Below are positions 1-33,535 of a stretch of DNA of 64,000 nt, piece by piece; the stretch's first letter is position 1; each line of letters opens with the position of its first letter. Below the pieces are notes generated by a model. The model was not told the origin of the DNA. It saw only the letters and a program-made list of their open reading frames with translations, and did no database searches. The DNA is from Chaetoderma sp. LZ-2023a. Taxonomy: Eukaryota > Mollusca > Caudofoveata > Chaetodermatida > Chaetodermatidae. Made by a program: the position numbers and the translations under genes. Where the stretch lies: assembly GCA_034401795.1 (NCBI GenBank), contig CM067373.1, forward strand, positions 41,051,781 through 41,115,780, read 5' to 3'.

Positions 1-772
1 TATCATATTAACTTATGAAATTCGCGATCGCAATATTACAGTTAATATTTTCTTCAAGGCATGATTTCGTTCTCGGGTCGAATTGGAAATGAAAGAAGAA
101 AGGGAGATAATTACATCATAATTAATTACAATCGCGTGATTTACGTCTTTTCGCAACCTGTTTTGCTGATTTATGATTAATTTTGACAAAATAAACGATG
201 TTTATTTAACTGTGCGTAATATTTAAGCGGTCTACTTAATAATTTCACTCCCGCGATGATGGATATTATAAGGTATGTTAAGCTTTAAAGGCGTAAAACG
301 TTACGAATGTATCAGGGCATGAAAATACGCTCTGTTTTCGTGCTAATTTTTATCATTTAAATTTTTTGTTTCATGTCCATAAAAACCGATATTCGGTTAA
401 AACCGATATGAAAAGTCATATCGAAACCGATATGGCTGTAAGCCAAACCGCGCAGCCCTAGTCTATTAGCTCGCCTGGTATTCACATCTGAATTTTGAAT
501 TTTTACTCGGGACTTACTCGTACATATAAGATGTCCAGCGGGGTCATGACTTCCCACAAGACAATCCCATATCTACAACATGATTGTTGCTTTTTGACAT
601 GTTTTAAATAAGTTCAAGTAAAGAACACTGTGAAGTAGAATAGTGTTGACAGGCAGCAAATTCTGGATGTCCGGTACTAAGTAGCTGGTACCTGACAAAG
701 TGTTGGACACTGTTGAAAAAGTTATTTCCAGGCCTGAGAAAATAACTTCTTTACAATGTAAATTGTATTCTG

Positions 773-860
773 TCAAATATTTTGAAATTATTAGTGCAGC
801 AGATGTTGCTGTCATCAGTAATGGCTACATGTCAAATTATTTTGGAAATATTCTGCAACT
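773..860. repeat. Degenerate copy of the GTTGCTG palindromic family
   Basis: One arm reads AAATATTTTGAAATTA and the other AAATTATTTTGGAAATATT, with GATGTTGCTGTCATC in the middle. The arrangement is that of the intact copies at 4585-4675 and 6536-6614, but diverged. The family is defined by comparison within this window only. Confidence 0.5.
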
Positions 861-1156
861 TTCTCTGTATGGCTACCATGATAGTAAGACATTTTTCAAG
901 GAAATAATTAACCATTTAATGTTAAAAAATGGACAGAAAATGCTGATATATGCTGACCAAGAAGACAATTTTTGAGAATTACAACTAGAATCGATCCAGT
1001 CATTGCAATAGTAAAATTTAAGAATTAACCTTAAATTTCTCTACAAATGGACATTTCTCATTTCCACTGCAGAGACCATTTCAGTAGGCTTGACCAGTAC
1101 AGGGTTAAACCGTACAGAACAAATATGAGAAATATGTTATGATGTATGGAATACTT

Positions 1157-1238
1157 TGTTGAACATTTTGAAATTAACTTCATTGGGAGCTGTTGATCTA
1201 TGTCAGCAACATATTTCAGGCAAGTTAATTTCAACATA
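1157..1238. repeat. Degenerate copy of the GTTGCTG palindromic family
   Basis: It starts TGTTGAACATTTTGAAATTAA and ends TTAATTTCAACA, with a CTGTTGATC / GTCAGCAAC centre. The layout and length (about 80 bp) match the intact family members. Confidence 0.6.
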
Positions 1239-1504
1239 CACAGCTTCTCGATGGAGTTGTATATTTAATTTGAAAATCTCAGGGGTTAAATGGATACGAC
1301 TTGGAATTTGTGAATGTACACCTAGCTTAAGTAGCTTTGTCCCTTTTCCTGTTACATGTTAGTTGCTAATTGCAGTTTATTCTCAAAATCAATAAACTGA
1401 TGTGATAATCATTTTGCTTATTCTCTACGTGTTACATGTATGTATACAGTTTTGACCAACCCTTAAATTAAACAGAATTATCAATTGGCTATGTAATTTC
1501 CTCA

Positions 1505-1645
1505 AAAGTGCTTAAGGGCTTGTGCTTAAGCCCTTTGCAAAGGGTTTGTGCTTGTGCTTGTGCTTAAGCTCTTTGAAATCAGGGAGGGCTTGTGCTTAAG
1601 CCCTTTTTAAGTGCAAGGGCTTGTGCTTAAGCCCTTTCAAAAGTA
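1505..1645. repeat. Short minisatellite, GGGCTTGTGCTTAAGCCCTTT-like unit
   Basis: The motif CTTGTGCTTAAGCCCTTT recurs about four times with variable spacers. Each unit contains the dyad GGGCTT...AAGCCC, so single strands could fold. Confidence 0.75.
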
Positions 1646-1745
1646 CTTCGCCCCATGCCTGCTTAGCACTCCGATGTCAATATTCTAACTTTTGCTATGT
1701 AAATAACAAAGAAACTGGTATACATTTTTCAATAGTTTGGTTGAT

Positions 1746-1772
1746 GATGTTGCTGTCTATGACAGCAACATC
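1746..1772. repeat. Perfect 12-bp-arm hairpin, GTTGCTGTC core
   Basis: GATGTTGCTGTC, a TAT loop, then GACAGCAACATC: a perfect dyad. It matches the centre of the dispersed palindromic family, while the outer arms are not evident, so it is probably a core remnant. Confidence 0.6.
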
Positions 1773-2069
1773 CTCTAACAAATTTGCCAAAAAATCTACA
1801 CCAGATCATCTTTTAATTTAATATGAAAATTAAAAATTCTGCCATCAGAGTAGCAAGGGTTAACACTGATTTGTGGAAATGCTGTGGTGCAGATGGGTGT
1901 TCCCCGCATCAGCTACGGTATGCCACCTACACTCATGGTGACACCATGCTGCACCTGGCATTTGGTTATATGTTGACTTGTGGAGGCCATAGTTGGTCTG
2001 ATTGCTGCTGTGTTCATCTTACGTGTTTGTCGCTATCTGAATCTCCTGCTCTACGCTAGTAACTCTTCA

Positions 2070-2691
2070 CGCTATAAGTTAGTCCGAGTCTGCTCTGACT
2101 CAATCCACCCCTGTGACAGATATTTGGACAGACTGACGGGCCGGAGAGAGTCAGAGCAATTTGTATGCTCAAAAGTTGGAGAACTCCGCCACCGCTTGGT
2201 AGCGCGCCTCTTAATCAACCATAGCTACAATATTTGACACAAACCCTGGTTAATACTTCGTATAATTCACATATCCATTTGCTCACACCTTAAATCCTGT
2301 TAAATATGTCCTATATCTCACGTTATTTAACTTATTAGTTCATTGTTGACAAATTTTATCAAATTTCAAGTGAAACAGCCATTGCAAAAACAGTGATGAC
2401 GTAGTACACAACTTTTCGCCTCGAAAATCATGCAATTTCACCCTGAGCAAATTTGAACCCCAGGGTGACTAAATTAAACTGGAAAGAAAAGGACGGATCT
2501 AGATCGCGTCAGTTTTGTTGGTTAGATAAGATAATCAATTATTTATGCTGCATTCATTATTCTCATTTTACATCCGTGGGTGGTTGGGTGTGTGAGGGTG
2601 GGTGGGTGACAGGGAAGTGGGTGCCTGGGTGAGTGGAAAATTAAGTGAGTTATTCAGTGACTAAGTGGTTCGGTGAATTAATGAGTGGGTG
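2070..2691 (+). repeat. Left arm, outer domain of the foldback-like structure
   Basis: This is the reverse complement of 18425-19003, with scattered substitutions and small indels. It contains the single-copy hexamer ATGAGT (2681-2686), which is the empty version of the site occupied by the element at 15557-18424 in the other arm. A short frame (about 2097-2237) is open in both arms, but I do not recognise it. Confidence 0.85.
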
Positions 2692-3170
2692 TGCGGTCGG
2701 TGGGTTGGTCGGCCATTCGGTCGGTGGGATGGGGGTCGGTAGGTCGGACCTCGGTCGGTCGCTCGGTCAGTTCGACCTCGGTTGGTGGGTAGATGGATGG
2801 GTCGGTCATTGGATCGGTCTGTGGGTCAGTCGGTTGGTGGGTGGGTCGGTTGGTCGATGGCTGGGTGGGTTGGTCGGTCGGTTGGTCAGACCGTCGATCG
2901 GTTGGTTGGTGGATGGGTCGGTCGGTCGATGGGTGGATCAGTCAGTCGGTCGGTCAGTGCGTGTGTGGGTCCAACCTCGGTCGGTTGGTGGGTGGGTCGG
3001 TCCGACCTCAGTGGGTGTGTGGGTCAGTTGGTTGGTCGATGGGTGGGTTGGAGAGTTGGTTGGTCAGTCGGTCGTTCCGACCTCGGTGGGTGGGTGAGTG
3101 GGTTGGTCGGTCGATGGGTGGGTGAGTTTGTCGGTTGGTGTCGATCGGCCCGACCTCAGTTGATCGGTTT
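2692..3170 (+). repeat. GGTCGGT / GGTGGGTC minisatellite, left arm
   Basis: Irregular tandem array of GGTCGGT, GGTTGGT and GGTGGGT units, punctuated by GACCTCGGT. All three forward frames stay open and give Gly/Val/Trp/Ser-rich low-complexity products; these are not genes. It is mirrored at 15318-15550 and continues at 5010-5188 after an inserted element. Confidence 0.9.
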
Positions 3171-3324
3171 GTATGGAAAACTAAAATATCAGCAATCCTA
3201 ATTTTTCACACCACCATTTTTTGGTTTACGAACGAAATCTCGCGTTTTCGCCAGAATCTAATTCGATTGGGTCCCAGTCGCGTCTTACAATATAAAACCG
3301 CCTATTACCGGGAACATCTCGCGG

Positions 3325-3707
3325 TTGTTGAGCAATACGTGTCTGAACATGTTCAATTACAACGCAATAAAAATGAGCGAATCAGCAGTCGTCTGTCAAA
3401 TAGTACAGAGTCTGAGAAGTCAAACCAATGAAATAATTTGCGAGATTGCCTTTTTTTGTGATACAGTAAACATGGGAACGTGCAAGTATTCTAGTGTTTG
3501 GGAAACTAACGATAAATATAATGATTGGATTTTACCGGACAACACATCAAACTCGCGTGCCAAATGTAGTTTTTGTAATAAGTCTTTTGACATCGGGAAT
3601 ATGGGTGAAGTGGCTCTTGTTAGCCACATGTTGGGAAAAAACCATGAGACACTGACAGACGTTCGTCTAAAGCCAGCGCCGAAAGTTACAGATTTCTTTG
3701 GTTCAAG
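3325..3707 (+). pseudogene. BED-like zinc-finger exon of a hAT-like transposase (exon 1)
   Basis: The 128-codon frame ends one codon after a good splice donor (TCAAG|GTAACA at 3707/3708). I favour the internal ATG at 3373, because the codons before it look like leader. Residues about 58-110 read W-x(8)-W-I/L-x(2)-D..., then C-x2-C (KCSFC) and H-x5-H (SHMLGKNH). This C2H2 spacing, with a G-x4-AL-x-SH context, is what I expect of the DNA-binding finger before hAT-like transposase domains. The catalytic exon is absent from this copy; a compatible one lies at 15785-16448 in the other arm, with matching intron phase. So this copy is non-autonomous, and the exon is a remnant. Confidence 0.65.
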
Positions 3708-3746
3708 GTAACAATATTTTACATTTTCACGTTGATAGTACTAGCA

Positions 3747-4092
3747 TCATTTAGAAGCGTAGCAATTTTATATCGCCCAACGTTAGATGATCCCAACTTT
3801 GCTTGGAGTCACGATAAAATATTATTACTGCCCAACAGCTCTCTCGTTTTACGAGGTCTCTTATGTTGGCGTGTTATCGAGTGAAAATAATGAGAATTCC
3901 TCCTGTTGCTACGGCGATCATTTAGAAGCGTAGCAATTTTATATCGCCCAATGTTAGATGATCCCAACTTTGCGCTGAGTCACGGTAAAATATTATTGAC
4001 TGCCCGACAGCTCTTTCGTATCGCGAGGCCTCTTATGTTGCCGCATTATCAAGTGAAAATAATGAGGATTCCTCCTGTTGCTATGGCGATAT
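3747..4092 (+). repeat. Tandem duplication, two units of about 172 bp
   Basis: Both units begin CATTTAGAAGCGTAGCAATT and end with CCTCCTGTTGCTA. They differ by scattered substitutions and small indels. They lie inside the hAT-like element, downstream of the zinc-finger exon. Confidence 0.85.
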
Positions 4093-4228
4093 GATCAGCG
4101 ATGGTAAATTTAAAATAAATTAGTGTATGTGTATATGTGCAGGGTTTAACTTGTTATCTAAAGGTGGGGGTGGGGGTGGCCCTCAACAAATAAATGTGGG
4201 TGTCTCAAACTCAACTTTGCATGATAGC

Positions 4229-4309
4229 TGTTGAATATTTTGAAAATAATTTGACTGGAAACTATTGCTGCAACAGTTTCCAGTCAAATTATTTTCAAAA
4301 TATTCAACA
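4229..4309. repeat. Palindromic family member, 81 bp
   Basis: TGTTGAATATTTTGA at the left and TCAAAATATTCAACA at the right are exact inverse copies. The middle reads GACTGGAAACTATTGCTGCAACAGTTTCCAGTC, given here only by position. About 35 nt following it are repeated after the copy at 4585-4675, so one of the two arose by local duplication. Confidence 0.85.
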
Positions 4310-4584
4310 AAAAATGTGCTGCTGTAATGAAATTCATATCTGGTTTGCATCCTGAAAAACACTGAGCCACTCCTAGACAATATACGGTTCCCAGAACCAC
4401 TCCTAGACAATATGCTGTTCCCAATCTAGATTTTGGGGCTATATACCCTCAAAAAGTCCCTTTATAATGAGAAATCCTGAGTATGTGTGACACACTGCGT
4501 GTGTTTGTGTGTATGTTGATATTTCTGGCTATATTAGATTAAGATAACTCCTATGATCTTTTAATAGTGTTTTGATAGGATAGC

Positions 4585-4675
4585 TATTGAATATTTTGAA
4601 AATAATTTGACTGGAAACTATTGCTGCTTAAAGCAGCAACAGTTTCCAGTCAAATTATTTTCAAAATATTCAACA
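4585..4675. repeat. Palindromic family member, 91 bp
   Basis: An almost perfect inverted repeat with arms of about 42 bp and centre GCTGCTTAAAGCAGC. It lies at the position equivalent to the copy at 6536-6614 in the related element, so it was present before that element multiplied. Confidence 0.9.
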
Positions 4676-5009
4676 AAAAATGTGCTGCTGTAATGAAATT
4701 CATATCTGTGCGTGGGCGCGCTGTGCTTTGATATTCTTGTGACAATTATTTATATATATGCAGTTTGTTATTGTCCTCGGGTCTTCCACTACTGCGGTTG
4801 CTTCAGTTCCACAGGCAAAAGTGCGTGCGCTGTGTTTTGATATTCTTGTTTTATAAAGTTTAATAAAGTTTATATATGATAATATGATGAACTTAGTAAC
4901 TGTGTTTGTTTTTTGTCTGATTGAAAGTCCCAAAATGAGGTCTGGAAAATTTGAAATTGAGTCTGGAAAAAGTCTGGAATTTAATTCTGCTGAGGGTGTA
5001 TGAACCCTG

Positions 5010-5188
5010 CGGTCGGTCTGACCTCGGTCGGTGGGTCGGTCGATTTGGGTGGGCGAGTTGGTCGGTCAGTCCGACCTCGGTTGGTCGGTCTGTGGGTGGG
5101 TTGGTCAGTCAGTCGTGGGTCGGTCGGTCAGTTGGTCGGTGGGTGGGTCAGTCAGTTAGACCTCTGGCAGTTGGTCGGTCGGTCTTCT
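5010..5188 (+). repeat. GGTCGGT minisatellite, continuation after insertion
   Basis: The same GGTCGGT/GGTGGGT/GACCTCGGT array as 2692-3170, resuming immediately after the hAT-like terminus at 5009. Confidence 0.85.
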
Positions 5189-6185
5189 AGCCTACAGGAC
5201 TAGTCTACCAGCTTACTAGCCTAGTCTAACAGCCTACTAATCTACTAGCCTATATGCCTAGTCTACCCGCTTACTAGCCTACAGTCCTAGTATACCAGCC
5301 TACTAGCCTATGGGCCTAGTCTATCTTTCATGTTTAGGCCATAGCTCTGCCTTAGCCAGTCTTGTCTTGGTCTTAATTAGATAGCAGCTAAGCTATGGCT
5401 AGGCCTTATCCGGGCTTAGATATGCCTTACCTAGCCTTAGCTATGGCTACCTAGTCATTACCTAACCATTAGATAGGCTTAGTTAGGCCTTCCTAGGCCT
5501 AATCTATGCCTTATCTATGCTTCGCTTAGTCTTACCTTGGCCTTAGCTATGCTTATTTAGGTATTAGTTAGTCCTTACTTCGACCTTACCTGGTCCTTAT
5601 TTAAGCTTGGCTAGGTCTTAGCGAGGCCTTAACCTGGCATTGCTTAGCCGTACATAGGCATTGACCAGGCTTTGCTAGGCATTACCTAGGCTTGGGTAGG
5701 CCTTAGCCAGGCTGGATTAGGTATTACTTAGATCATAGCTAAGATTGGCTAGGCCTGAGTGTAGCCTTATCTAGGCTTGGATATACTTTATCTAGGTCTT
5801 AGTTACCGTAGGTTTTAGCTAGTAATAGCTAGGCACTACCTATGCCTTAGCTAAGGCCAGGCTAGCCTTATATAGTTCTAAGCTATGTCTTATCTAGGAT
5901 TGGCTTAGTCTTACCTAGGCCTTAGCTATGCTTATGTAGGCATTAGTTAGTCCTTACTTAGACCATATCTGGTCCTTATTTAGATTTGGCATTACTTAGA
6001 CCATAGCTAAGCTTGGCTATGCTTGAGCATGGCCTTATCTAGGCTTGGATATACATTATCTACTAGGTCTTAGTTAGGTTTTGGCTAGCATTAGCTACTC
6101 TTTACTTAAACCTCAGGTAGGCTTGGCTATGCCTTAGCTAGGCTGGATTAGGCTGTACCAAGGCATAAGCTAGGCTGAGGTAGGC
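5189..6185 (+). repeat. CTAGCC / CTTAGCTAGGC minisatellite, left arm
   Basis: Degenerate tandem array. The first 120 bp use units such as CTACTAGCCTA; the rest use GCCTTAGCTAGGC-like units of about 11-13 bp. The inverse array is at 14197-15312. It resumes at 7021 after an inserted element. No coding potential. Confidence 0.85.
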
Positions 6186-6191
6186 CTTATA

Positions 6192-7014
6192 CAGGGTTCA
6201 TACACCTTCAGCAGAATTAAATTCCATACCTTTTCCAGACTTTTTCCAGACTCAATTTCAAATTTTCCAGACCTCATTTAGGGACTTTCAATCAGACAAA
6301 AAACAAACACAGTTACTAAGTTCATCATATGATATATAAACTTTATAAAACAAGAATATCAAAACACAGCGTGCACACTTTTGCCTGTGGAACTGAAGCA
6401 ACCGCAGTAGTGGAAGACGTGAGGACAATAACAAACAGCATATATAAATAATTGTCACACGAATATCAAAGCACAGCGCGCGCGCACACACACAGATATG
6501 AATTTCATTACAGCAGCACATTTTTTGTTGAATATTTTGAAAATAATTTGACTGGAAACTGTTGCTGCTTTAAGCAGAAAGTTTCCAGTCAAATTATTTT
6601 CAAAATATTCAACAGCTATTCTATCAAAACAAACTATTAAAAGATCATAGGAGTTATCTTAATCTAATATAGCCAGAAATATCAACATACACACAAACAC
6701 ATACAGTGTGTCACACATACACAGGATTTCTCATTATAAAGGGACTTTTTGAGGGTATATAGCCCCAAAATCTAGATTGGGAACCGCATATTGTCTAGGA
6801 GTGGCTCTTGGAACCGCATATTGTCTAGGAGTGGCTCAGTGTTTTTCAGGATACAAACCAGATATGAATTTCATTACCGATATTTAATTTTCCATACATT
6901 TTCCATACCAGTTGGCCCAAAATTGGAAATTCCACACTTTTTCCAGACCTGGAAAAGGCTTTCCTAAATTTCCATACCTTTTCCAGACTTCCCTATAGGA
7001 ATAGACGAACCCTG
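6192..7014 (+). mobile_element. Non-autonomous hAT-like element, 823 bp, 6-bp TSD
   Basis: Termini are CAGGGTTCATACACC and GACGAACCCTG. The hexamer CTTATA flanks both ends perfectly (6186-6191 and 7015-7020). Subterminal regions are packed with TTTTCCAGAC and TTTCCATACC motifs in both orientations, typical subterminal transposase-binding repeats. It has no ORF, holds a palindromic unit (6536-6614), and is largely the inverse of 4200-5009. Confidence 0.85.
6536..6614. repeat. Palindromic family member, 79 bp
   Basis: TGTTGAATATTTTGA ... TCAAAATATTCAACA with near-perfect arms and a short GCTTTAAGC centre. It sits inside the non-autonomous hAT-like element. Confidence 0.9.
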
Positions 7015-7020
7015 CTTATA

Positions 7021-7191
7021 TAGGCCATAGCTAGTCTTGGTTATGCCATACCTAGGCCATACCCAGACTTTGCTAGCCTATTGCTAAGCTTTGGTCAGGA
7101 TTGACAATGCCTTAATCAGGTCTTAACTAGTGCTTTATTAGGCTTATCCAGGCCTTAACAAGGCATAGCTAAGCCTGGCAACGGTCTAGGG
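7021..7191 (+). repeat. CTTAGGC-type minisatellite, left arm, end portion
   Basis: The array of 5189-6185 continues after the inserted element and stops at the DIRS terminus (7192). Confidence 0.75.
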
Positions 7192-7231
7192 ATGAAGGAA
7201 ATTTCAATTTCCCTTTCTCAGAGATCTAACA

Positions 7232-7390
7232 ATACTCACCATTCTATTACTTCTGATACAAGTTATCTTGGATAGCTGGCCCTAGGAATATAGACTTAGT
7301 AAGCTTTACCGGCTCCTGGAACCGGGTACTCGGCTCCCAACAGCCGAGTACCCGCTTGCCATGAAGCTCATATTGTTTGCATAGCCACCA
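7232..7390 (-). repeat. DIRS inverted terminal repeat, 3' side
   Basis: From CACTCACCATTCTATTAC-like sequence through TTGGATAGCTGGCCCTAGGA to TTGCCATGAAGCTCAT, it is the reverse complement of 14010-14185. The left copy additionally contains a local dyad GTACTCGGCTC...GCCGAGTAC. Confidence 0.85.
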
Positions 7391-7449
7391 AACAAGAGAT
7401 ATCCATGGCTTGCCTCCGAGGGTCTGGGAGGCAGGGTCCGTAATAAAAT

Positions 7450-7530
7450 GGTGAGTATTGTTAGATCTCGGAGAAAGGGAAATTGAAATTTCCTTCATTC
7501 TCCTTCGATCAATACTCACCATTCTATTAC
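7450..7530 (-). repeat. DIRS internal complementary region (joined complements of both ends)
   Basis: Positions 7450-7497 are the inverse of 7192-7240 (GAAGGAAATTTCAATTTCCC end). Positions 7498-7530 (CTCCTTCGATCAATACTCACC) are the inverse of 14162-14194. Established DIRS models use this region to template circle formation before recombinase integration. Both halves are still clearly complementary to their ends. Confidence 0.85.
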
Positions 7531-8027
7531 TTCTTATATACACCAGATTTAGACAGTAACCTGGTGGGAAGGGGCAAGCCATCAATTGCTACTTTTGCCC
7601 CTTGGAGAAAGAGCTTAGACTTAAACTTGACAAATGGAGACGTAAAAGGACCATCAAGTTAAAGGGACCGAATCACATTCGCATCACTGCCCCCCCCCCC
7701 CAACCCCTTTTGTCTCCTAAGAGAAGGGAGAGAACTCACGAACATGCATCTCGCCTGAAAACACAAATATGCTAAGAAGGTTAACTGCTCTTTGCATATA
7801 TCAGCCTGGGAATGAGCATGAATATTTAAGATGAATGAACATGATATATACACATAATACAAAAAATTACCTCAAGATATTCGGATTCCAGATGCGGAGC
7901 CTATAACCAATCACTCGTCCGGCCATCAGTGATACAATCTGGTTGACATCCTCTCGCTTGACCATGTCTGTTTCTTAAATCTTGCTTACAAATGCCAAAA
8001 ACGGAGAATTGCAGTGTGGTCATTTAA

Positions 8028-9143
8028 CTATCGTTTCAAAACAGCTAAAGCAAGTGGATTGGCAGAGTCTGACATATCCCTCATATAGTAATCCATGAAA
8101 AAGGCCCCGCAGTGCCATTGTGCAACAGCCATGATGTCCTCTAACGGAACACCATTGTAAAGGGCGGTCGAGGCGGCTATTCCTCTAACATCGTGTGCCC
8201 TTGCGCATTGCACCTGGTGCCCAGTCGCAATCTCATGGGTAGTCTGAATACATTCGACTACCCAACGAGAGATAGAATCCATGGATGCGGTGCCATATGG
8301 CTTTTTATGGCAGATCCACAGATGTCTATCATTCGACCGTAACGAGTCTGTCCATCTTTTGTACTTAGTCAAAGCACCGACTGGGTACCAGACACTGGCA
8401 TCACGATCAAACCTAGTTAGTTTCGGTATAATGATCGGTTTGCCGGGATATTTCAAAGCTTGATTGTTTGACATAAACTCTGCTCTTGGCAGTAGATGCA
8501 GACCCTCTCCAGAGACAATAAATCGGTCCCTCTCTGCTGAAAGCGCATGGATCTCACTGCGCATTCTAGCTGAGGAAGCCGCCAATAGAAAGACCGCCTT
8601 TAGAGTCAAATGCTTTAGATTAGCTGAACGCAATGGTTCGAAAGGGTGCTTGGCCAGTACATTAAGCACTAAAGATAGACGCCAGGCTGGAATGACTACC
8701 AGTTGTCTCGGTCGGAGATTGCTCATTCTCTTCCCCATCACATTTAACTGGGCCACCTCTGGACTATCCCTGTTGGCTAGACAAGGGATAACTGATGCCA
8801 AAGCTGACTTGTATCCAGTAATTGTGACAGGAGCTAGTCCTGAAAAGAACAGCTCACAGAGAAAGTCTGCTATTTGCTGAATAGTGGATTGAAAGGTATT
8901 AATACTCTTTCCTTCACACCAGTCTGCAAACCTGTTAACCTTGTGGTTATATGACTTGAAGGTTGACCTCCTTCTCGCAGCTGCGATTAATTTCGCAGTT
9001 TGTCGAGAAAAATTTGATAACATCCACCCAGTCAAGTTGAACATTTCGGGACGCTTGTGTAGGAAGCGTCCCTTGGCCTGGGAGATCTCGGGTAACCGCA
9101 CTGGATTGTCCACCAGCAGATCTAGAAGATCCGTAAACCACAA
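8028..9143 (-). CDS. DIRS tyrosine recombinase with RNase H tail remnant
   Basis: An open frame of 371 codons that would catalyse site-specific integration of the circular DIRS intermediate. It has no ATG at its 5' edge (first codon TTG at 9143; first ATG at residue 34), so it was once the 3' part of a longer RT-RNase H-recombinase ORF. Residues 2-20 (WFTDLLDLLVDNPVRLPE) resemble the linker after RNase H in such polyproteins. The core-binding domain spans roughly residues 45-150 and the catalytic domain 165-365. Likely active-site residues are all present: R193 or R195 (SSARMRSE), H317-x-x-R320 (AHDVR), H344 and Y352/Y353 (DYYMRD). There is no internal stop or frameshift, in contrast to gag. 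It overlaps the end of gag (8947-9143) in another frame. Confidence 0.85.
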   Translation of the reverse strand: MWFTDLLDLLVDNPVRLPEISQAKGRFLHKRPEMFNLTGWMLSNFSRQTAKLIAAARRRSTFKSYNHKVNRFADWCEGKSINTFQSTIQQIADFLCELFFSGLAPVTITGYKSALASVIPCLANRDSPEVAQLNVMGKRMSNLRPRQLVVIPAWRLSLVLNVLAKHPFEPLRSANLKHLTLKAVFLLAASSARMRSEIHALSAERDRFIVSGEGLHLLPRAEFMSNNQALKYPGKPIIIPKLTRFDRDASVWYPVGALTKYKRWTDSLRSNDRHLWICHKKPYGTASMDSISRWVVECIQTTHEIATGHQVQCARAHDVRGIAASTALYNGVPLEDIMAVAQWHCGAFFMDYYMRDMSDSANPLALAVLKR

Positions 9144-10765
9144 CCTGCTGGGTCAAAATGGTGCTATTAGCAGGACCAGGCACGGTTCCTCTCTGACGGT
9201 CGGTGGCAACATTGGGGTGGGTAGGCACCTCCACAACCTTCTTGGCCGGAGGCGGCTGAGAAGACCCAGTAGAAACAGAAGCAGCACGAGGCTTGGCTTT
9301 CGCCTTGCTTTTATGCTTCTTCTGCTTCTTAGAAGGGTGTCTGGTTAGTGGCTTGGCGAGTGATGAGTGCCATAAGTTTGTGAGGGTCTTGTTCAAGATT
9401 ACAGCCCCTAGTGCATGCGCCTCTCGCACTAGTTCCAGCTGCAGATTCACCACTAACCGATTCTGCGCGATGCTGGCAGTGTCTTCTAAGATGGCCCACG
9501 CTTGGACACCAAAGATGCTAGGGCCAGTAAGGGGCGTCCCAAGAAGACGCTCCCTAACAGCCATAGCTGGACGCATATGGTCAAGGACCATCTGCCTCCT
9601 AGACTTTGTCACTTGCGCCTGCACCCTTGCCAATGCGTCCATAGACAACACTCTGGACTCCCAGCATCCAGCGATCATCCTCAGTGACCGCTGGCACAAC
9701 ACCATATCTGTCGTATTCCGCACGGGGAATACGGCACCTTGCCCGCACCTCCCTGGAGGCTGCAGGGAGATGGCCCTTGGTCAGAAGCTGTTTGCTATAA
9801 ATAGCATCCAACAACTCCATAAAGACTGGATCCGGGATGCGGGCAAAATCCAGGTCCTAATCGATACCACCGATGGACGGGGTGCATCCTCCTCGGTCGT
9901 GGTCGAAACCACAGAGCCAAGCCAGAGCCTCCGACCAGTCTGTCCGTGAAGAGGACACTCCCGTGAACACGTCACCCGTCGACGTGCTCACGGGCCTACC
10001 AGCAACGGCCTCCCGGCTAGGAGCCATTGCTGATACGCCAGGAACTCCGGTACCGTACGGTTCCGCCGCCAACCCATGGAAAACACCAGTCCATGGAGTA
10101 GGCCCACACGGAAAATTGTGCGGACCCGTAACGGTTGAGGAACCGTGGCCAAGCACAGGCGCCAATGGCACCCCATGCCTGACCGCTGGACCAGGCGATA
10201 TAGGTGTATACTACGCCTGGCCAGCCACACAGGTCACTGTGTCGGTTGGTGGCAAACCAACCATCACAGAACCAGTGCCCGGTACAGGAGTGGCCTCAAC
10301 CATGGGCGGAGCTGCTGTCCTGGCTTGCGCCAAGCCAGACAGATGGAGGATGGTTCCGCAGCATCTCAGGCCGCAGCAATCTCTCCTCCTCGGCCTCCTC
10401 GTCTTCAGACTCCGAAGAGTCGTCACCAGACGAGGAAGCACTGGAGCCGTCCTTGTGGATGGCTCCCATACTTGACCGGCTACCGCTACTGGACCACCCA
10501 GAGGTGGCCGCAGAGAGACAGAACCCATCAGGCCAGAGCCCGACGGGACTGCCAGGGAGCTGTACGAAACGGTTCCCTCGCTGGCCAGTCCAGAACCCTG
10601 TCCAAGGACATGGTCTGTACCAAGCACGGGAAGAGACTGCCCTGCAACTTTTGGTAGCAGGGACGACACCAGCGTGGGAAGGACGCTATGCAAGAAGCCT
10701 TGCATAGCAGGTCCAAACCACGCCAGAGGTGCCATTTCCGCAACCTCCGGTTGCAGATGTCTCAT
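8947..10765 (-). pseudogene. DIRS gag-like ORF, two stops and a frameshift
   Basis: Read from an ATG at 10765, one frame runs through about 10211 (TAG), continues in the same frame to 9857 (TAG), and then to about 9640. There the frame must change to join the open frame ending at 8947. The last third is rich in Lys/Arg (KKQKKHKSKAKAKPR), consistent with a nucleic-acid-binding Gag tail. An earlier part (IPDPVFMELLDAIYSKQLL) and the block around SRRQMVLDHMRPAM look like DIRS Gag, but I base this mainly on position. After about 9145 the frame runs into the recombinase region, which marks the RT/RNase H deletion junction. Long plus-strand ORFs here are antisense shadows. Confidence 0.6.
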
Positions 10766-11009
10766 GGCACTCGTCACATGATGGCAGGGCTGGCGTGGCC
10801 TATAAATAAGCACAAACCTACAATAAACAGGCGGAACGAAACACGAATGGAAGGCAGACAAATAATTTTCAAATAAATTTGACCCTAAATTAATGTTACC
10901 CTCCAGCACCCCACCCCGCCACATTACAGCAAAGATCGCATTGATTATGACGACAAGAACGAAACGGGTAACATACACCCATATACTGATCCTGAAGGAT
11001 GTATAAACG

Positions 11010-11387
11010 CAGGGTTTGTACACCTTTCTGGTATTAAAATTCCATGACTTTTCCATGACCAAAATTAACAAATTCCATGACCTCCAAGAATTAATATCTA
11101 GCAAATTTGTGTGTATGACATAGATACATAAGTTACGACCTGAGCTATTATGTAAAATATCTGGCCAAAGGCTTGTTTTGATAAGCGGTTGCTATAATTT
11201 TCATTGCATTAAGGTGACGGTGGAAATTAATGCCTCAGACTTCTTTAATTTTGCACGATTACCATTTTCCATGACTTTTCAATGACATATGAGAAAAAAT
11301 TATGATTTTCCATGACTTTCCAGGCCTGGAATTCAGATTTTCAAATTCCATGACTTTCCAGGATTTCCATGACCAGTACAAACCATG
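11010..11387 (+). mobile_element. Short hAT-like MITE, 378 bp, 6-bp TSD
   Basis: Starts CAGGGTTTGTACACC and ends GTACAAACCATG, with the hexamer TAAACG on both sides (11004-11009 and 11388-11393). Subterminal TTCCATGACTTTCCAGG motifs match those of the element at 16622-18187, of which it is an internally deleted relative. It lies within the DIRS leader. Confidence 0.85.
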
Positions 11388-11393
11388 TAAACG

Positions 11394-13139
11394 GAACCAG
11401 GAACCATATCGCATAGCATTCGGGGTATATTTACTAATCAATATAAATTATACTCCTAACGAAGGCCAAAACGATATGTGAAGAAACAACAAAATGTAAA
11501 CAAACTGCTGTAGCACACGGTAAAACCGCAGACCACACATCTAAATCAAGAATTTTGAAACCACCGATCATTGCAAACAGATCGTGAAACTGGCTGGCTA
11601 GCTAACATTAGAAGCTGGCTAACCAGTTTAATTATCGGGCGCTCAAGCAATTTTCTCCAACACCGCATTAAGTTTTGGATCATTTTATGTTGGTCACTTA
11701 CACTACAATATAACCAGTAATATAAATGATAAATTTTCTCGCTAGATTTAGAAATCAAGTGAACGCAAGTTTCTCGCTAGATTTACAAATCAAGTGAACT
11801 CGATAATCTGACACAGGTTTAATAGCCTATCTAACAAAAGAGGGTTATGTGATTACAAGGATTCAAATCAGTATCGTAATTTAGAACATCCGGGCATTCC
11901 GAGATCGTTTGACATTTGCAATTTACGACACACTAAAGAGGATATCACATAGCAACGCGCTGTTTACATTTTTCACGAAACTAAGGCCATAAAAAAGACT
12001 TATATCGAATAACCCCGCCCGGTATTACAAAACATAAAATCTCGAGTAATTTTTGCAAGATATTAAATAAAAAGTAAAAAGGTTTCACGGCCCATTGCTA
12101 GTAATGTTAAGTTAAATTAGCCTGCAAAAACGGCGCCAATTTAATGCGAAGACCGAATCGCGAATTAATATGATGGTCTTGTCTTTATTGTAATACGACT
12201 GACATGACTGATCATCGCGAAGTAATTGCGAGTTTCATGTTAGTTGGTTAGTAACGGTCCTTAGAATGACCACTCGCTTTTCTTCAGGGGATGATCGTGG
12301 TGTATCCTTGTGGTGTTCATCCGGTCCACCACGCCTGTTTGCACCACTGTCACATTCTTAATAGATCCAATAACTTCCCAACAGGTATATTACATAGTTA
12401 TGTAGGATACCTTATGTAGGATTCGATCCAAACCGGTATGTAGTGTACCTTATGTAGGAAAGAATGACGCTCGGAAATACGTACATGTACCTAGTCAAAA
12501 CTCCTAATTGATCCAAGAACTTCCCAACCGGTATGTTACATATGTCATGTAGGATACATTATGTAGGAGATGTTCCAAACCGGTATATAGTATACCTTAT
12601 GTAGGAACGAGCCGCTGTGGCTAAAATAGGATCAGAGATTTTGACTTCACCTTGATTAATTGTACCGCGAAGCTGATTGATGACGCAATTTTCTTTGCAG
12701 TCACACAAACTCCTTCTGTTTCATATGACTTGTTCAACAAAGATTGCAAGTTCTGTGACATTCATGAAAAATCAAATGTGGATCTAGCTCCACAAGATTA
12801 TGGAATGAATAGGATTTGTTGAGATAAGAGTTAGGTGTTTCCTGTAATACAGAAAATTAATTAATGACGGCTTGGACTCGGTCGCATGTATAGTAGCATA
12901 AGTGTGCATGCTCACGGACTCGTTTATGTTCTCTATAGGAATAGAGGAACCGGTTCCCTAGAGCAATGACTGCTTTAGAGTTAAAGAGATACTATCAAGA
13001 CTACCCAATGGATGGATGTATCTCTGCTAACCTTGTTTACAAGGGAACCCACACACCATGGGAATGAATAGGTTAAAATTTTCTGAGATATCTAAGTCAG
13101 GTGACTTATAGCAAACAGTGAATTGAGTGGCTTAGTATT
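11394..13139. other. DIRS leader region without recognised genes
   Basis: AT-rich sequence with no convincing ORF. It contains the segment 11519-11590, repeated at 13148-13300, and the tandem duplication at 12359-12612. Whether it is native DIRS leader or inserted DNA cannot be decided by eye. Confidence 0.5.
12359..12612 (+). repeat. Tandem duplication with GTAGGATACCTTATGTAGG motifs
   Basis: Two units of about 105 bp (12359-12467 and 12508-12612) share GATCCAA-AACTTCCCAAC, GGTAT-TTACATA and TATGTAGGA blocks. Within each unit, TTATGTAGGA recurs at short intervals. Confidence 0.8.
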
Positions 13140-13173
13140 TTTGTTGTGTTACAAAACCGCAGACCACACATCT

Positions 13174-13240
13174 TCTTCTTCTTTTCGTTCGCTGATCATA
13201 CCGCCAGTCCTGTAAGTGACTATCGACATGATCATAAGCG
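13174..13240 (-). mobile_element. 5'-truncated copy of a 233-bp SINE-like retroposon
   Basis: These 67 bp are the terminal part of the elements at 23634-23866 and 44813-45045. They are flanked by the direct repeat CACATCT (13167-13173 and 13241-13247). The paralogous segment at 11519-11590 lacks the insertion, which gives an empty site. Truncation at the end distal to the GAA-rich tail indicates target-primed reverse transcription, with the element on the minus strand. Confidence 0.9.
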
Positions 13241-13329
13241 CACATCTAAATCAAGAATTTTGAAACCACTGATCATTGCAAACAGATCGTGATAACACGC
13301 AAAACTTGAAAATTTCAAAGTAGTTCTGG

Positions 13330-13578
13330 TACCAATTACAGTACGCAGCACCCAGAATCAGATGCGCGAATTAATGAAACATGTACGACATCACCCGTTT
13401 GTCCTTGTGGAGTAGCAGAACAGACCACAGAGCACATACTTCAATGTTGCAGTACGTATCAGCTGCTGAGAGAAGAGATCTGGCCTTTGTCAACCTCTTT
13501 TCTTGAAAAGCTGTATGGGCCTGTGGAAGAACTGCAGAAAACCACAGATTTCATTTTGAGAACGGCTCTCCATGTATG
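13330..13578 (+). pseudogene. C-terminal fragment of a LINE reverse transcriptase protein
   Basis: A frame of about 80 codons ending in TGA at 13576-13578 contains CPCGVAEQTTEHILQCC, a Cys/His cluster typical of the region after the RT domain in several animal LINE proteins, followed by an LRE-x3-WP-like block. No RT core lies upstream. It is a fragment of unknown clade. Confidence 0.6.
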
Positions 13579-14009
13579 ATACCAGCGATCGAAAAGAAGA
13601 TGAAATATTTTCTTCACATAAAAATCCGAGATAACTTGGGTGTGACATCACCCGCTCGGATCACATGGAGAACGACGCCAGCCGATATTCGTGTTAAACA
13701 CCGTATAGCCAACACCTTATTTCATATCTGCCGATCGCCTGTTGGGGTTAAAGGAAGGCGACCAATCTGGCATATTTCCTTGTTAACACACGTCCCAGAT
13801 TCGGGGTCAGAAATTGGAACATGCGACACACACACAATTTTGAAGACCTAAGTATTTTAACTATGGAATAATATGGAATTATACAACCTGGATATCATCG
13901 GCTCCTTCCATGGTAATCCAGATAATCCTTATAGACCCCACACAAAGCTATCAATATCACAGAAAAAAGACTTAGAAACTTTATGAAAAGTCAAAGAACT
14001 TCCAACTGC

Positions 14010-14185
14010 AACAAAACATGTAGCTCTTGTTGCTATGCAACCAAGAATGAGCTTCATGGCAAGCGGGTACGCAGCTGTTGGGAGCCAAGTACCCGATTCC
14101 AGTAAAGCTTACTAAGTCTATAGTCCTAGGGCCAGCTATCCAAGATAGCTTGTATCAGAAGTAATAGAATGGTGAGTGTTGATCG
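14010..14185 (-). repeat. DIRS inverted terminal repeat, 5' side
   Basis: Inverse of 7232-7390, including AGCTATCCAAGATAGCTTG and GAGCTTCATGGCAAGCGGG. The outer extension to 14194 ends GATCGAAGGAGAA and is matched in the internal complementary region. Confidence 0.85.
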
Positions 14186-14196
14186 AAGGAGAAAGG

Positions 14197-15312
14197 CTTA
14201 GTCATGCCTGGCGGAGGCCTGGGTTAAGATGTAGCCAAGCCTACCTATGGTCAATCCCAGCCTGGCTAAGGGCGAGCCAAGACATAGGTACGGCCTAGTC
14301 AAGACTTGCTACGGTCTAGGTAAGGCATGGTGAAGTCTGGCGAAGGCCTCGGTAAAGCATTGCTAAGGCCTATGTGAGGCCTAGTCAATCCTTGAGACCT
14401 AGTTAAGCCTTTATAAGGCATAGGCAAACTTGTTGAAGGCTTACATGTAGGTAATGTATAACCAAGCCTAGCTACGGTTTATCCAAGCCTGGCTAAGGGC
14501 AAGCCAAGACATAGGTACAGGCCTAGTCAAGCATGGTCAATGTCCAGTTAGCTTAGTAAGTCATAGCGAAGACTGGCGAGGGCCTAGGTACGGCAAAGTT
14601 AAGCCTACCTGAGGCCTAAATAAGGACTAGCTAATGCCGATGTAAGCCCAGTGAAGGCCTACATAAGACTAAGCCAAGCCTAGATAAGGCATAGTTTAGG
14701 CCTATATAAGGCTTAGCCTGGCCTTAGCTAAAGCCTAGCTAATGCTAGTCAAAACCTAACTAAGACCTAGATAATGTATATCAAAGCCTAGATACGGCCA
14801 AACTCAGGCCTAGCCAAGCTTAGCTATGGTCTAAGTAATGCCTAATCCAACCTGGCTAAGGCTTACCCAAGCCAAGCTAAGGCCTAGGCAATGCCTAGCA
14901 AAGCCTGGTTAATGCGTAGGTAAGGCTAAGTCATGCCAGGTTTAAGGCCTAGCTGAGACCTAGCCAAGCCTAAATAAGGACCAGGTACGGTCTAAGTAAG
15001 GACTACGTAAGCATAGCTAAAGCCTAGGTAAGACTAAATGAACCGTAGACACAGATTAGGCCAGGAAGGTCTAACCAAGCCTAACTAAGGCTTAGGTAAC
15101 AATAACTAAGGCTAGATAAGGCATATCCAAGCACGGATAAGGCCTAGCCACAGCTTAGCTAATGTCTAATTAAGACCTAGCCAAGACTGGCTAAGGCAAA
15201 GCTCTGGCCTAACCATGTAGGTTGGTAGACTAGGACTGTAGGCTGGTACAATAGGCTGTTAGACTAGGACTGTAGGCTAGTAAGCTGGTAGACTAGTTCT
15301 GTAGGCTAGAAG
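14197..15312 (-). repeat. GCCTAGCTAAGG minisatellite, right arm
   Basis: Reverse-complement counterpart of 5189-7191. Most units resemble AAGCCTAGCTAAGGC; the last 100 bp use TAGACTAG/GTAGGCT units, mirroring the start of the left array. Degenerate, non-coding. Confidence 0.85.
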
Positions 15313-15317
15313 ACTGA

Positions 15318-15550
15318 TACACTCACACAACCACCCACCTACCGAACCACCCACCACCGAGGTCGGACCGACTGACTGACCCACTCACTGACCGACCGAC
15401 CCACTGACTGACCGAGGTCAGACTGACCAACCCACCCACCGAGCGACTAACCGACCCACCCACCGAGCGACCGAGCAACCAACCCACCCACCGAGGTCGG
15501 ACCAACCGACTCGCCGACTGACCGAGGTTGGACCGACCGACTGCACACCC
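15318..15550 (-). repeat. ACCGACC minisatellite, right arm
   Basis: Reverse complement of the GGTCGGT array (ACCGACCGACC, CACCCACC, ACCGAGGTC). It is shorter than the left array. Confidence 0.9.
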
Positions 15551-15784
15551 ACTCATCACGGTTCCCACACCTTTTGGAGAATATTTTTCCATACTTTTTC
15601 CAGACCAAATTAAAAAATTTCCATAGCCATTTAAAGACATTTTAATAGTGGACATTTGGGGAAAATAAAAACTTAAAAAATAATTTTTAACATTTGAGGC
15701 TTTTAATTGGTTCTATTTTGTACATCATATCACAGTTAAACATGCGAAAACAATGTACATGTATAAGTAAATTTCATAATTAAA

Positions 15785-16448
15785 CTAGCAAACAGTTTTA
15801 ACACTACCCGCTCTGATGGCATTGTGTACCTGGTGTAATCCACAGCTACCAATATTTATCACCCGCTTCTGATTTTCATCCTCTATGGCCTTTGAAAGAC
15901 TATCATATGTCTTCCAATTGACATTGGGTCCATCCATTGACAGTTGGAACATGCCACGAAGACCTAACTTATCACAACATTCTCGGAGTTTTTCATGAAT
16001 ATCTGTTGCTGTGACATGGCCGAGGAATTCCGATGTGTAGAATCGAGTGGAAATCTGATCTGCTTGCCAGAACCGAACATGAACATCCATTTGTTTAGAC
16101 TGAAGATGTCCATTAAGGCTTTCGTCGAATAATAAAACATAATCCGTCTCAGCCTTCACATTTGACAATAACAGTGACTGAAAATATGGTGCAATGCCAA
16201 AAGTAGAAAGATAAGCACACTTCATCTCTCCACAAGAGAATTTCGAGGCGATCATACTATCTGGAAACATTATACGGAATAAATTGCCAACCTTCTCACA
16301 ACTTTTGAATGAGAAGTGATTCTGTATGACATTAAGGCACCAGTAAATCTCGGATGAGAGGACTTCATTTGTTGCTACGAATGATCCTAACGAGGCTGAT
16401 GGTGTAGAAAAGACTATGGGTTGCTTGGGAGGAATGACTGCTGGAGTT
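15785..16448 (-). pseudogene. hAT-like transposase catalytic-region exon (exon 2)
   Basis: About 220 codons open on the minus strand. A splice acceptor (CTCCAG|AACTCC at 16448) gives the phase that fits the donor of the zinc-finger exon at 3707. Recognisable blocks are FSFKSCEKVGNLFRIMFPDS, then CGEMKCAYLSTFGIAPYF, then YVLLFDESLN, VRFWQADQISTRFY, LSMDGPNVNW and GSCGLHQVHNAI. The Asp residues in LLFDES and SMDGPN are plausible acidic catalytic positions of an RNase H-fold transposase. The family is widespread in invertebrate genomes and is usually described as hAT-like; I am not certain of the superfamily. The frame stops at 15785, short of a full transposase, and the finger exon is absent, so this copy is probably dead. 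Confidence 0.7.
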
Positions 16449-16621
16449 CTGGAGTTTTTCAAAATTTACAACAAATTTATTTGACACAAATATTTATTTT
16501 CCTTCCTAATGGGGGAAAATAATTAATTTAATTTAAAAAAATTTTATACGTTGAATTTTTTTTTTTAATTTCATTAATTTTTTTACAATTTTTATGTTCC
16601 CGGTAATCGCAATGTATTGGA

Positions 16622-18187
16622 CAGGGTTTGTACACCTTTCAGTATTTGAAATTCCATGACTTTTCATGACTAAAATTAAGAAATTCCATGACCTCCAAGA
16701 ATCAATAGCTAGGTCAAAGACAGTCAAATGTGTTTCAAAATGTTCAACAGCATATAGTGAATCATATGGAATTCACTTTATCTAGGGCAAAGGGTCAACA
16801 TGTGAGAATATCCGGTACATTTTTAATAAAATCTGAGGTTTTCACATAAAAAATTGATGAATAAAAATTCTGAATGGAAGTTCTAGAGCCTATGATCATA
16901 CATGTAGTATCCTTTCAGCCTAACATGGTTGAAATCGGTCAAAATGGTAAGAAGCAATATGGCCATTTCTAGTAAAGATTTTGACCCAAAAAATTCTCTA
17001 TTAACCCTTTAACACTCATATCAGCCAAAGCCGGCTTCTGTCATGCGTGGTCTTGAGAGATGTCCATTTGCAGGCCAAGAGAAGATTATTGTTGAACATT
17101 TTTTATAAAATAGTCTTCACTTGGTCTGCAAATTGACATTTATTTTTTAATTAAAAAAAATTTTGAACAAATTTAAGGCCGAGGCTTCTATTTGGACAAG
17201 GTGTTCAAGAATAAATTTAAATCCAATCCCTAAAATTGTTACTTTCGCAAATATGTTGCGCACTAATAGATAACACGCATGGGAAAATTTGACAAAATAT
17301 GAGCCAAAAAAGCCTTATACATGTATATACCATACCACGCAATCAGTTTAGAAATATTGCAAAACATATTTTTCACACGAACGAAAATTGGTAACTTTAC
17401 CGCTAGATTCAAAATAATAATAATCCTTTATCGGCTAAATATCTTGTTATTCTTTTAATTTTACCAAGTTTATTTCATACTTTAACCGTAATAGAACGCA
17501 TAAAACCATCTTTGAGCAAGAAATACGTTCAATATACAGGGGAATCTCCATACACTAGCGAGACCGAGATATCATCGGCATCTAATTATCATAATGTAAC
17601 CAATTCGGCCGGGACGAAATCGCCCAAGTGAACAAAAAATCTTGCCACTAAATATACTGCCGAATGCATACGCTGAGTAGGAAATAGTGAATTTATTGCT
17701 CAAATTGTTTTTAAAACATTCTCTTCTGTACATATTTATTATTAATTTGGGATATTCGCATTCGCGGCGTTACAAAACCCGTTTTTATTTGGGAGGCCTC
17801 CTTCCAGTCCAGATATAATTTCAGTGGAATGTCTCCAATCACAAAAGAGTTTAATATGGCCTACCAACATAAGAAGGGATTTAACCTCATTTAATTTCTT
17901 ACGTTGTTTTGGGTCATTTTATTTTGGTTGGACATATGACTTTGATAATGAATGAAATCATGTGATCGCCGCGATAAAGATATGGAAATGTGTATTTCCG
18001 AGCTTTATTTCCCCATTTCACATTTGTATGCCATCAGATTTTATTTTTATTTAGGGAGATTATCATTTTCCATGACTTTTCCATGACTTTTATCAAATTG
18101 ACAAATTTCCATGACTTTTCCAGGCCTGGAATTTAGATTTTCAAATTCCATGACTTTCCAGGATTTCCATGACCCGTGCGAACCCTG
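16622..18187 (+). mobile_element. Non-autonomous hAT-like element nested in the 15557 element, 1566 bp
   Basis: Begins CAGGGTTTGTACACC and ends GTGCGAACCCTG; ATTGGA is repeated at 16616-16621 and 18188-18193. Termini and TTCCATGACTTTTCC subterminal repeats match the 378-bp MITE at 11010-11387. Its interior has no recognisable ORF and includes a TTAACCCTTT block near 17003. Confidence 0.85.
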
Positions 18188-18424
18188 ATTGGAGCTTGGT
18201 GGTTACCGGTACCCAATCCAGACTTGCGAAACCAGGAACAAGGAAGTGTTTGTTGACAAAATGGCTGCCGGAAAAAATTACAAATCCCGATATTTTAATT
18301 TTCCATACCTTTTCCATAGCGGTACCGCAAAATGTCAAATTTTCCATAGCTTTTCCAGCCCTGGAAATGCTTTTCTTAAATTTCCATACTTTTTCCAGAC
18401 TTCCATACCTGCGTGGGAACCCTG

Positions 18425-19003
18425 ACTCATTAATTCACTGAATCACTTAGTCACTGAACCACTCACTTAATTTTCCACTCACCCACCCACGGATGTAAAA
18501 TGAGAATAATGAATGCAGCATAAATAATTGAATATCTTATCTAAGCAACAAAAATTGACGCGATCTAGATCCATCCTTTTATTTCCAGTTTAATTTAAAC
18601 ATCCCGGGGCTCAAATTTGCTCAGGGCGAAATTGTGTGATTTTCGAGGCAAAAAGTTGTGTGCTACGTCATCAATGTTTTTTGCAATTGCTGTTCGCTTG
18701 AAATTCGATAAAATTCGTCAACAATGAGCTAAAAAGTTAAATAATGTGAGATATAGGACATATTTAACAGGATTTAAGGTGCGAGCGACTGGATATGTGA
18801 ATTTTACGAAGCAATAAGTGAATAACCAGGGTTTGTATCGAATATTGTAGCTAAGGTCGATTAAGAGGCGCGCTACCAAGCGGTGGCAGAGTTCTCCAAC
18901 CTTTGAGCATACAAATTGATCTGACTCTCTCCGGCCTGTCAGTCTGTCCAAATATGTCACAGGGGCGGGTTGAGTCAGAGCAGACCTGGGACTAGCTATA
19001 TGT
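18425..19003 (-). repeat. Right arm, outer domain of the foldback-like structure
   Basis: Reverse complement of 2070-2691. Homology ends near 19003, where GGGACTAGCTATA parallels TATAAGTTAGTCC at 2070. Confidence 0.85.
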
Positions 19004-22536: not shown

Positions 22537-23498
<962 letters not shown>

Positions 23499-32827: not shown

Positions 32828-33535
32828 GTGGAGTCACCAGACATGGAATACACCTCTTCACCGGTAGATGGTGTCGTCACCAGACATGGAATACGTCTCT
32901 TCACCAGCCCATGGTGTCGTCACCAGACATGGAACACGCCTCTTTACCAGCGCATGGTGTCGTCACCAGATATGGAACACGCCTCTTCACCGGTACATGG
33001 TGTCGTCACCAGACATGGAACACGCCTCTTCACCAGCCCATGGTGTCGTCACCAGACATGGAATACGTCTCTTCACCAGCCCATGGTGTCGTCACCAGAC
33101 ATGGAACACGCCTCTTTACCAGCACATGGTGTCGTCACCAGAAATAGAACACGCATCTTCACCAGCGCATGGTGTCGTCACCAGATATGGAGCACGCCTC
33201 TTCACCGGTACATGGTGTCGTCACCAGACATGGAACACGCCTCTTCACCAGCCCATGGTGTCGTCACCAGACATGGAACACGCCTCTTCACCAGCCCATG
33301 GTGTCGTCACCAGACATGGAACACGCCTCTTCACCAGCGCATAGTGTCGTCACCAGAAATGGAACACGCCTCTTCACCAGCGCATGGTGTCCTCACCAGA
33401 CATGGAACACGCCTCTTCACCGGTACATGGTGTCGTCACCACAAATGGAACACACCTCCTCACCAGCGCATGGTGTCGTCACCAGAAATGGAACACGCCT
33501 CTTCACCAACGCATGGTATCACCAGGGATGGAATA
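32828..33535 (+). repeat. 43-bp minisatellite, about 16 copies
   Basis: The unit is GTGTCGTCACCAGACATGGA followed by ACACGCCTCTTCACCAGCCCATG-like sequence, 43 bp in total. Positions vary between copies (AACACG/ATACGT, AGCCC/AGCGC/GGTAC). As 43 is not a multiple of three, all three forward frames read the same peptide repeat out of register. All are open over long stretches, producing apparent proteins of up to 279 codons. It lies about 270 bp upstream of the last DNase exon, in the intron. Confidence 0.95.

Follow-up and report, generated by a model that had tools for sequence, protein, structure and literature searches.

A 16.9-kb locus of Chaetoderma is very probably an old copy, broken up by insertions, of a dispersed foldback DNA transposon family

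The locus described here lies in a 64,000-nucleotide stretch of the genome of the mollusc Chaetoderma sp. LZ-2023a (assembly GCA_034401795.1, contig CM067373.1, positions 41,051,781 to 41,115,780), which we refer to as the window; window coordinates throughout are positions within this whole stretch. Between 2080 and 18994 it holds two inverted arms, each built of an outer domain and two classes of short tandem array, together with four inserts. We consider it very probable that this structure is an old and heavily interrupted member of a non-autonomous family of foldback DNA transposons that is dispersed in the genome. An intact member of the family is about 4.7 kb long and forms one long imperfect palindrome without a loop. 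From the end inwards, each arm consists of a unique outer domain of about 610 bp, a GTCG array and a CTAGCC/CTTAGGC array (the inner array), whose prevailing strand switches near the centre. The element has dispersed as a single unit whose two arms are distinguishable, and 9-bp target duplications flank it. The features of the window copy are as follows.

2071..2079, plus strand: left target site duplication GCTATAAGT, 8 of 9 bases equal to 18995-19003
2080..2693, plus strand: left outer domain, starting TAGTCCGAGTCTGCTCTGACTC, the first ~66 bp common to small hairpin elements
2694..3165, plus strand: GTCG array (period 4), left arm, outer part
about 3166..5009, plus strand: nested insert A, CAGGGTTC type, with an open reading frame (ORF) at 3325-3711
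5010..5184, plus strand: GTCG array, left arm, inner part
5185..6191, plus strand: left-arm part of the inner array (CTAGCC/CTTAGGC), with a period of about 10.7 bp
6192..7014, minus strand: nested insert B, CAGGGTTC type, 823 bp, with the 6-bp duplication CTTATA on both sides
7015..7191, plus strand: inner array, left arm, continuation
7192..14193, minus strand: nested DIRS-type retroelement with inverted terminal repeats and an internal complementary region (7440-7538)
14194..15311, minus strand: CTAGCC/CTTAGGC inner array, right arm
15312..15556, minus strand: GTCG array, right arm
15557..18424, minus strand: nested insert D, CAGGGTTC type, 2868 bp, with an ORF at 15785-16462 (minus strand)
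18425..18994, minus strand: right outer domain, finishing GGACTA
18995..19003, plus strand: right target site duplication GCTATATGT, 8 of 9 bases equal to the left one

The termini of the window copy are symmetric (TAGTCC at 2080, GGACTA at 18994), and the 9-bp duplications that flank them agree at 8 of 9 bases. Of 20,000 position pairs drawn at random from the window, 14 had at least 8 matches; with shifts of up to 2 bases permitted, 8 of 3,000 did. In a self-comparison of the window, the outer domain at 2077-2590 aligned in inverted orientation with 18997-18476 at 89% identity, and the array region 4933-5964 with 15632-14613 at 74% identity. The junction between outer domain and GTCG array is uninterrupted in the left arm (AATTAATGAGTGGGTGTGC); in the right arm insert D splits the two, with the cut at ATGAGT. 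A first-pass annotation of this DNA had described a 16.9-kb foldback in which the order of outer domain, GTCG array and CTAGCC array is mirrored from 2070 and from 19003. The mirrored order is confirmed in the window and repeated in all five intact copies found elsewhere. The proposed ends coincide almost exactly with the outer limits of the 9-bp duplications, the termini themselves lying at 2080 and 18994. The foldback structure likewise stands, but its size does not: the 16.9-kb span arises from four nested later inserts (A, B, the DIRS element and D), without which the arms measure 2447 bp and 1925 bp, and an intact element measures 4.55-4.72 kb.

Three of the inserts are of the CAGGGTTC type. 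Two of these are bounded by 6-bp duplications, that of D reading ATGAGT (ACTCAT on the plus strand) on both sides, and two have ORFs of transposase-like appearance; insert A shows no clear target duplication, and its 5' end is approximate. Pfam analysis of the two ORFs (3325-3711 and 15785-16462) gave sub-cut-off zinc-finger/BED matches in one and none in the other. The insert at 7192-14193 fits a DIRS element, with its inverted terminal repeats and internal complementary region and with the recombinase and reverse transcriptase (RT) found in a relative, L016. The window element contains a tyrosine-recombinase-like ORF (8028-9143) with a recombinase Pfam score below the cut-off and is without the RT region present in L016, where both a recombinase SAM-like domain and RT score above the cut-off. 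It had been proposed that the DIRS element now takes up the loop of the foldback; the five intact copies have no loop, and the DIRS element lies inside the central array, as an ordinary nested insert and not the occupant of a loop. It also sits within the inner array in L016, and the copies in L009, L021 and L026 have flanks other than the array. The DIRS family is abundant (1575 candidates, of which the best 40 were scored). Targeting of the arrays by DIRS elements was ruled out, array-like flanks being present in 0 of 20 other family copies, a count that includes two (L061 and L063) where the expected end motif is absent at the cut. Inserts between the arms at other loci comprise an RT element in L027, perhaps Penelope-like by its motifs (Pfam shows RVT_1 alone), and a BED-type ORF in L012.

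The genome searched for further copies comprises 2.44 Gb in 2753 contigs. With at most one mismatch the terminus occurs 776 times in forward and 774 times in reverse orientation, as against 0 and 0 for the control; these 1550 matches take in the hairpin elements described below, and foldback copy number is not given by the count. When the outer domain was used as query (best 40 of 1436 candidates scored, 41 rows), 33 of the 41 rows started at query position 10-13, which corresponds to window 2079-2082, that is, to the terminus. Stretches of 10 kb were read at 20 loci, those of the best outer-domain matches other than the window and its duplicate. A second outer domain is present in 11 of the 20, inverted and inward-facing in every one. 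The outer domain is followed by GTCG in all 20 stretches, although in L028 by one 150-bp bin only. Beyond GTCG the inner-array signal is clear in 18 stretches (it is weak in L028, and L025 has none), and the array order is mirrored in 10 of the 11 inverted pairs. Five copies are intact (L010, L011, L013, L022 and L023; 4554-4723 bp). All five read outer domain, G-rich array, inner array, C-rich array, outer domain, with no loop, and the strand of the inner array tends to switch near the centre. A query from the inner array (900 bp of L011; best 40 of 1098 candidates scored, L011 itself counted) found that 33 of 40 places have, no more than 3 kb away on their inner side, an inverted partner at least 200 bp long. 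Six had only a short partner (53-123 bp, perhaps chance in a repetitive array) and one had none; at 12 of the 40 places an outer domain from among the best 40 is present at a distance of 5 kb or less.

Target duplications were compared in the nine pairs with both ends (L019 and L021, each with one end missing, were left out) and matched at 9, 9, 7, 9, 5, 9, 9, 7 and 8 of 9 bases, with 9 of 9 in all five intact copies. None of 72 mismatched flank pairings reached 7 of 9, the mean being 2.4. Inverted arms with tandem repeats, dispersed inverted pairs with common termini and a target duplication, the features expected of a foldback-type element, are all present. The first-pass annotation had proposed a foldback transposon with two minisatellite classes per arm, and this proposal is borne out by recurring inverted pairs that share array order, terminus and 9-bp duplications. 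It had also recognised that a single such pair in the genome, or outer domains that always occur singly, would point instead to a local inverted duplication or an assembly artefact; the outer-domain search found neither situation. A local duplication does exist: window 1-11311 recurs about 20.9 kb upstream (C15:41030835-41042157) at 99.74% identity with the right arm absent, and the identity extends at least 835 bp before the window start. As an explanation of the element itself, duplication or artefact is nevertheless extremely improbable in view of the five intact copies elsewhere with perfect target duplications, the number of terminus matches (hairpin elements counted), the pairing at most inner-array places, and the presence of paired copies with target duplications on many contigs. 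The upstream copy reflects either an effect of the assembly or a recent duplication of part of the region, its left half; tandem duplication of the whole element was ruled out, since that copy spans only window 1-11311.

The foldback transposon shares its ends with minute hairpin elements. The exact termini listed for contigs C1 and C2 number 81, and they include 10 inverted pairs 82-138 bp apart. The nine of these pairs that were read are hairpin elements with their first ~66 bp in common with the foldback arm. Six of the nine have a 9-bp duplication that matches at 9 of 9 bases, another matches at 8 of 9, and the remaining two match at 3 of 9. One of the last two, L037, shows an 8-of-8 repeat GGAGTTCA in its flanks if read as an 8-bp duplication; the other, L030, shows none. 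Hairpin elements, which are miniature inverted-repeat transposable elements (MITEs), are found at L029-L037 and L039, several of them within one repeated target CAGTATATCCCT. At L038 (C1:89855838-89856344) three stand head to tail with a period of 141, perhaps a MITE turning into a satellite. A repeated element at L043, L044, L045 and L046 (99.7-100% identical over about 1 kb) contains a hairpin element that belongs to a second subfamily (TCTCAACCCGGCCTAT); L043 also has a 946-residue open frame.

The region where the common sequence ends in the foldback arm bears on the origin of the arm. The left outer domain of the window copy has the inverted motif GAGTCAGAGCA at arm position 69, and across 29 of 30 arms this motif, the complement of bases 12-22, is found near position 69 with at most one mismatch. 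To judge from these motifs, each foldback arm begins as if with a hairpin element minus its last 11 bases. Such a structure could be the relic of a composite, in which two opposed hairpin elements flanked satellite DNA and their inner ends decayed, the whole now being one mobile unit. In favour of a composite, the first ~66 bp of the arm are the terminal repeat of the hairpin elements, and GAGTCAGAGCA lies where a hairpin element would close, with the last 11 bp gone. Against it, the hairpin elements may just as well have arisen from the foldback element by deletion, and we regard the composite as a possible but rather unlikely origin. The tie between the foldback element and minute hairpin elements with the same ends makes the origin of the foldback arm testable.

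Since the two kinds of element have in common both their ~66-bp ends and mostly 9-bp duplications, one transposase presumably moves foldback and hairpin elements alike. This transposase is probably that of a Mutator-like element (MULE). Long terminal inverted repeats (TIRs) and duplications of 8-11 bp are typical of MULEs (PMC6446971), and duplications of 8 or 9 bp are described for the MULE Muta1 (PMC5225508). The foldback family has both long TIRs and a duplication within 8-11 bp. MULE domains are present in the genome, with at least 130 matches among the best 150 of 344 candidates scored; none was tied to the TAGTCCGAGTCTGCTC terminus, proximity being compared for the exact termini on C1 and C2. 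Ten interior ORFs from seven stretches (nine hand-picked from 122 in 13 stretches and one from L027) gave hAT, BED, recombinase or RT domains in Pfam, or nothing; the scan took in a minority of the interior ORFs, and several of the 122 are runs of unknown bases. A pattern that excludes the common inner sequence was used to look for an autonomous partner and gave 74 places, only one of which lay within 10 kb of a MULE match in a by-eye comparison. This candidate, L043, was rejected: the locus holds a hairpin element nested in a different repeated element, with the MULE fragment about 8 kb away and no second terminus nearby.

The foldback element might instead be moved by a non-MULE transposase, for example one that is P/Galileo-like or Merlin-like. 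No transposase is tied to the family in the present analysis, and arms of the FB type arise in more than one superfamily, Galileo being a P-superfamily element (PMC3573991). We consider this alternative unlikely on the evidence of the duplications, which match at 9 of 9 bases in five of the nine two-ended copies and in six of the nine hairpin elements, whereas Galileo makes duplications of 7 bp (PMC3573991). The 7-8 bp duplication of the P superfamily was not seen: five copies have 9 of 9, and in an 8-bp comparison the eight copies scoring at least 7 of 9 matched at just 1-3 of 8 (7 bp was not computed separately). Moreover, Tm1, Tetris and Muta1 have similar arms and duplications of 8-10 bp, and Tm1 and Muta1 are MULEs (PMC3169594, PMC4079207, PMC5225508). 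For a family mobilized by a MULE, the transposase would be supplied in trans, bind the ~66-bp ends common to the hairpin elements, cut at TAGTCC and insert with a 9-bp stagger, so that foldback and hairpin elements would both be moved by cut and paste. The window copy was later struck by three CAGGGTTC-type elements and one DIRS element.

We compared arm identity between and within the five intact copies. In the inner array, the same arm of different copies is 0.931 identical (0.886-0.972, n = 20), as against 0.828 (0.806-0.858) for opposite arms and 0.833 for the two arms within one copy. The arrays thus keep their arm identity across copies, which indicates that the palindrome predates dispersal and that the arrays travel unchanged. 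Unlike the arrays, the outer domain shows no trace of which arm it belongs to: same-arm and opposite-arm identities are both 0.942, and the within-copy mean is 0.958 (n = 5). These values suggest that the two arms became alike at a later date in their outer domains than in their arrays; either gene conversion or constraint on transposase-bound ends would fit. Two distinguishable arms let one ask why one part of an arm, the outer domain, is equalised and another, the arrays, stays different.

Several observations weigh against this account of a mobile foldback family. In 9 of the 20 stretches the outer domain has no partner within about 9.5 kb, and the stretches surround the best-conserved matches and are a non-random sample. 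Pair L020 has both ends but no duplication (5 of 9), and one of the two sides of L021 is without a GTCG array. The copies examined yielded no transposase, and of the 18 MULE matches on C1 and C2 the one nearest to any of the 81 exact termini listed for these contigs is 133 kb away. In the outer domain the within-copy identity of 0.958 is only slightly above the between-copy value of 0.942, and the ranges overlap. The outer-arm tree leaves most of its structure unresolved, with 22 of its 30 inner branches open and one starred, so that copy-by-copy homogenisation is not proven.

The arrays themselves differ in period. That of the outer array is 4, and the inner array of the window copy peaks at 10/11, 21, 32, 43, 53 and 64 bp. 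The CTAGCC parts of the two window arms gave an alignment score of 776 when inverted, 40 when direct and at most 319 in 200 block shuffles, which shows that the order of variants is mirrored, beyond mere composition. The GTCG parts scored 125 inverted and 20 direct with a block-shuffle mean of 133, orientation alone being informative here. In inner arrays from the window (5330-6190 and 14232-15200) and from L010, L011, L013, L022 and L023, TA-step power was scanned at periods of 8-14 bp over ~900 bp. It peaked at 10.54-10.74 bp in 12 of 12 arrays (mean 10.65, standard deviation 0.07), each array exceeding the maximum of its 100 base shuffles. The helical repeat of DNA is about 10.5 bp. The TA period of 10.65 bp lies near this value, which may be chance, as any tandem unit of such mean length gives the same signal. 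The inner array also holds its register from copy to copy. That it acts as a helically phased scaffold rather than an idle minisatellite seems to us distinctly doubtful. A phased array could bend the arm or offer one face of the DNA to a protein, and could bring the palindrome ends together for transposition or shield the palindrome from folding or silencing. Functional phasing at 10.65 bp, if true, would be a new role for transposon minisatellites.

Elsewhere in the window there is a perfect TG repeat of 442 units (22612-23495) and a 43-bp minisatellite of about 16 copies that is crossed by an open frame (32833-33517).

Long inverted arms of short tandem repeats are familiar from FB of Drosophila and TU of sea urchin, whose repeat units appear to differ from those of the window element. 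The first-pass annotation knew of no described element with this pair of arrays, and we likewise found no description of the window element in literature on foldback/minisatellite, Rehavkus, mollusc and palindromic MITE elements, Repbase and most subscription papers being outside the scope of the search. The terminus as a text string in papers gave 0 hits, and an exact search with a 34-base stretch of the outer domain in viral_contigs and genome_contigs also gave 0. Published foldback elements come from flies, nematodes, plants and sea urchin (PMC3169594, PMC4079207), and the number of arm repeats varies in Tm1, Tetris and Galileo (PMC3169594, PMC4079207, PMC3573991). Galileo of Drosophila resembles the present family in its long, internally repetitive TIRs, and the first copies found consisted of TIRs only; it differs in its 7-bp duplications, its P-superfamily transposase and the ~210-bp tandem repeats of one subfamily (PMC3573991). 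Muta1 of Aedes aegypti is a MULE with foldback-type TIRs, subterminal tandem repeats, duplications of 8/9 bp and many non-autonomous relatives, but its TIRs are 145 bp and its repeats 12 bp long, and it encodes a transposase and is active in yeast (PMC5225508). Tm1 of root-knot nematodes has tandem-repeat foldback arms, mostly 9-bp duplications and non-autonomous copies; unlike our family it has repeats of about 14 bp in variable number, asymmetric 7-bp end motifs and a known Phantom-type MULE transposase (PMC3169594). Among the literature searched, Tetris of Drosophila virilis is the closest system in print. In its arms tandem repeats come after a unique flanking domain; it lacks coding capacity, makes duplications of 8-10 bp and has ends in common with a small inverted-repeat element, DAIBAM, and its transposase is reported not to have been found (PMC4079207). 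However, Tetris has one repeat class of ~220 bp in variable number, and only three complete copies are reported there (PMC4079207), whereas the family described here stacks two short-period classes in each arm and keeps the array register across five intact copies.

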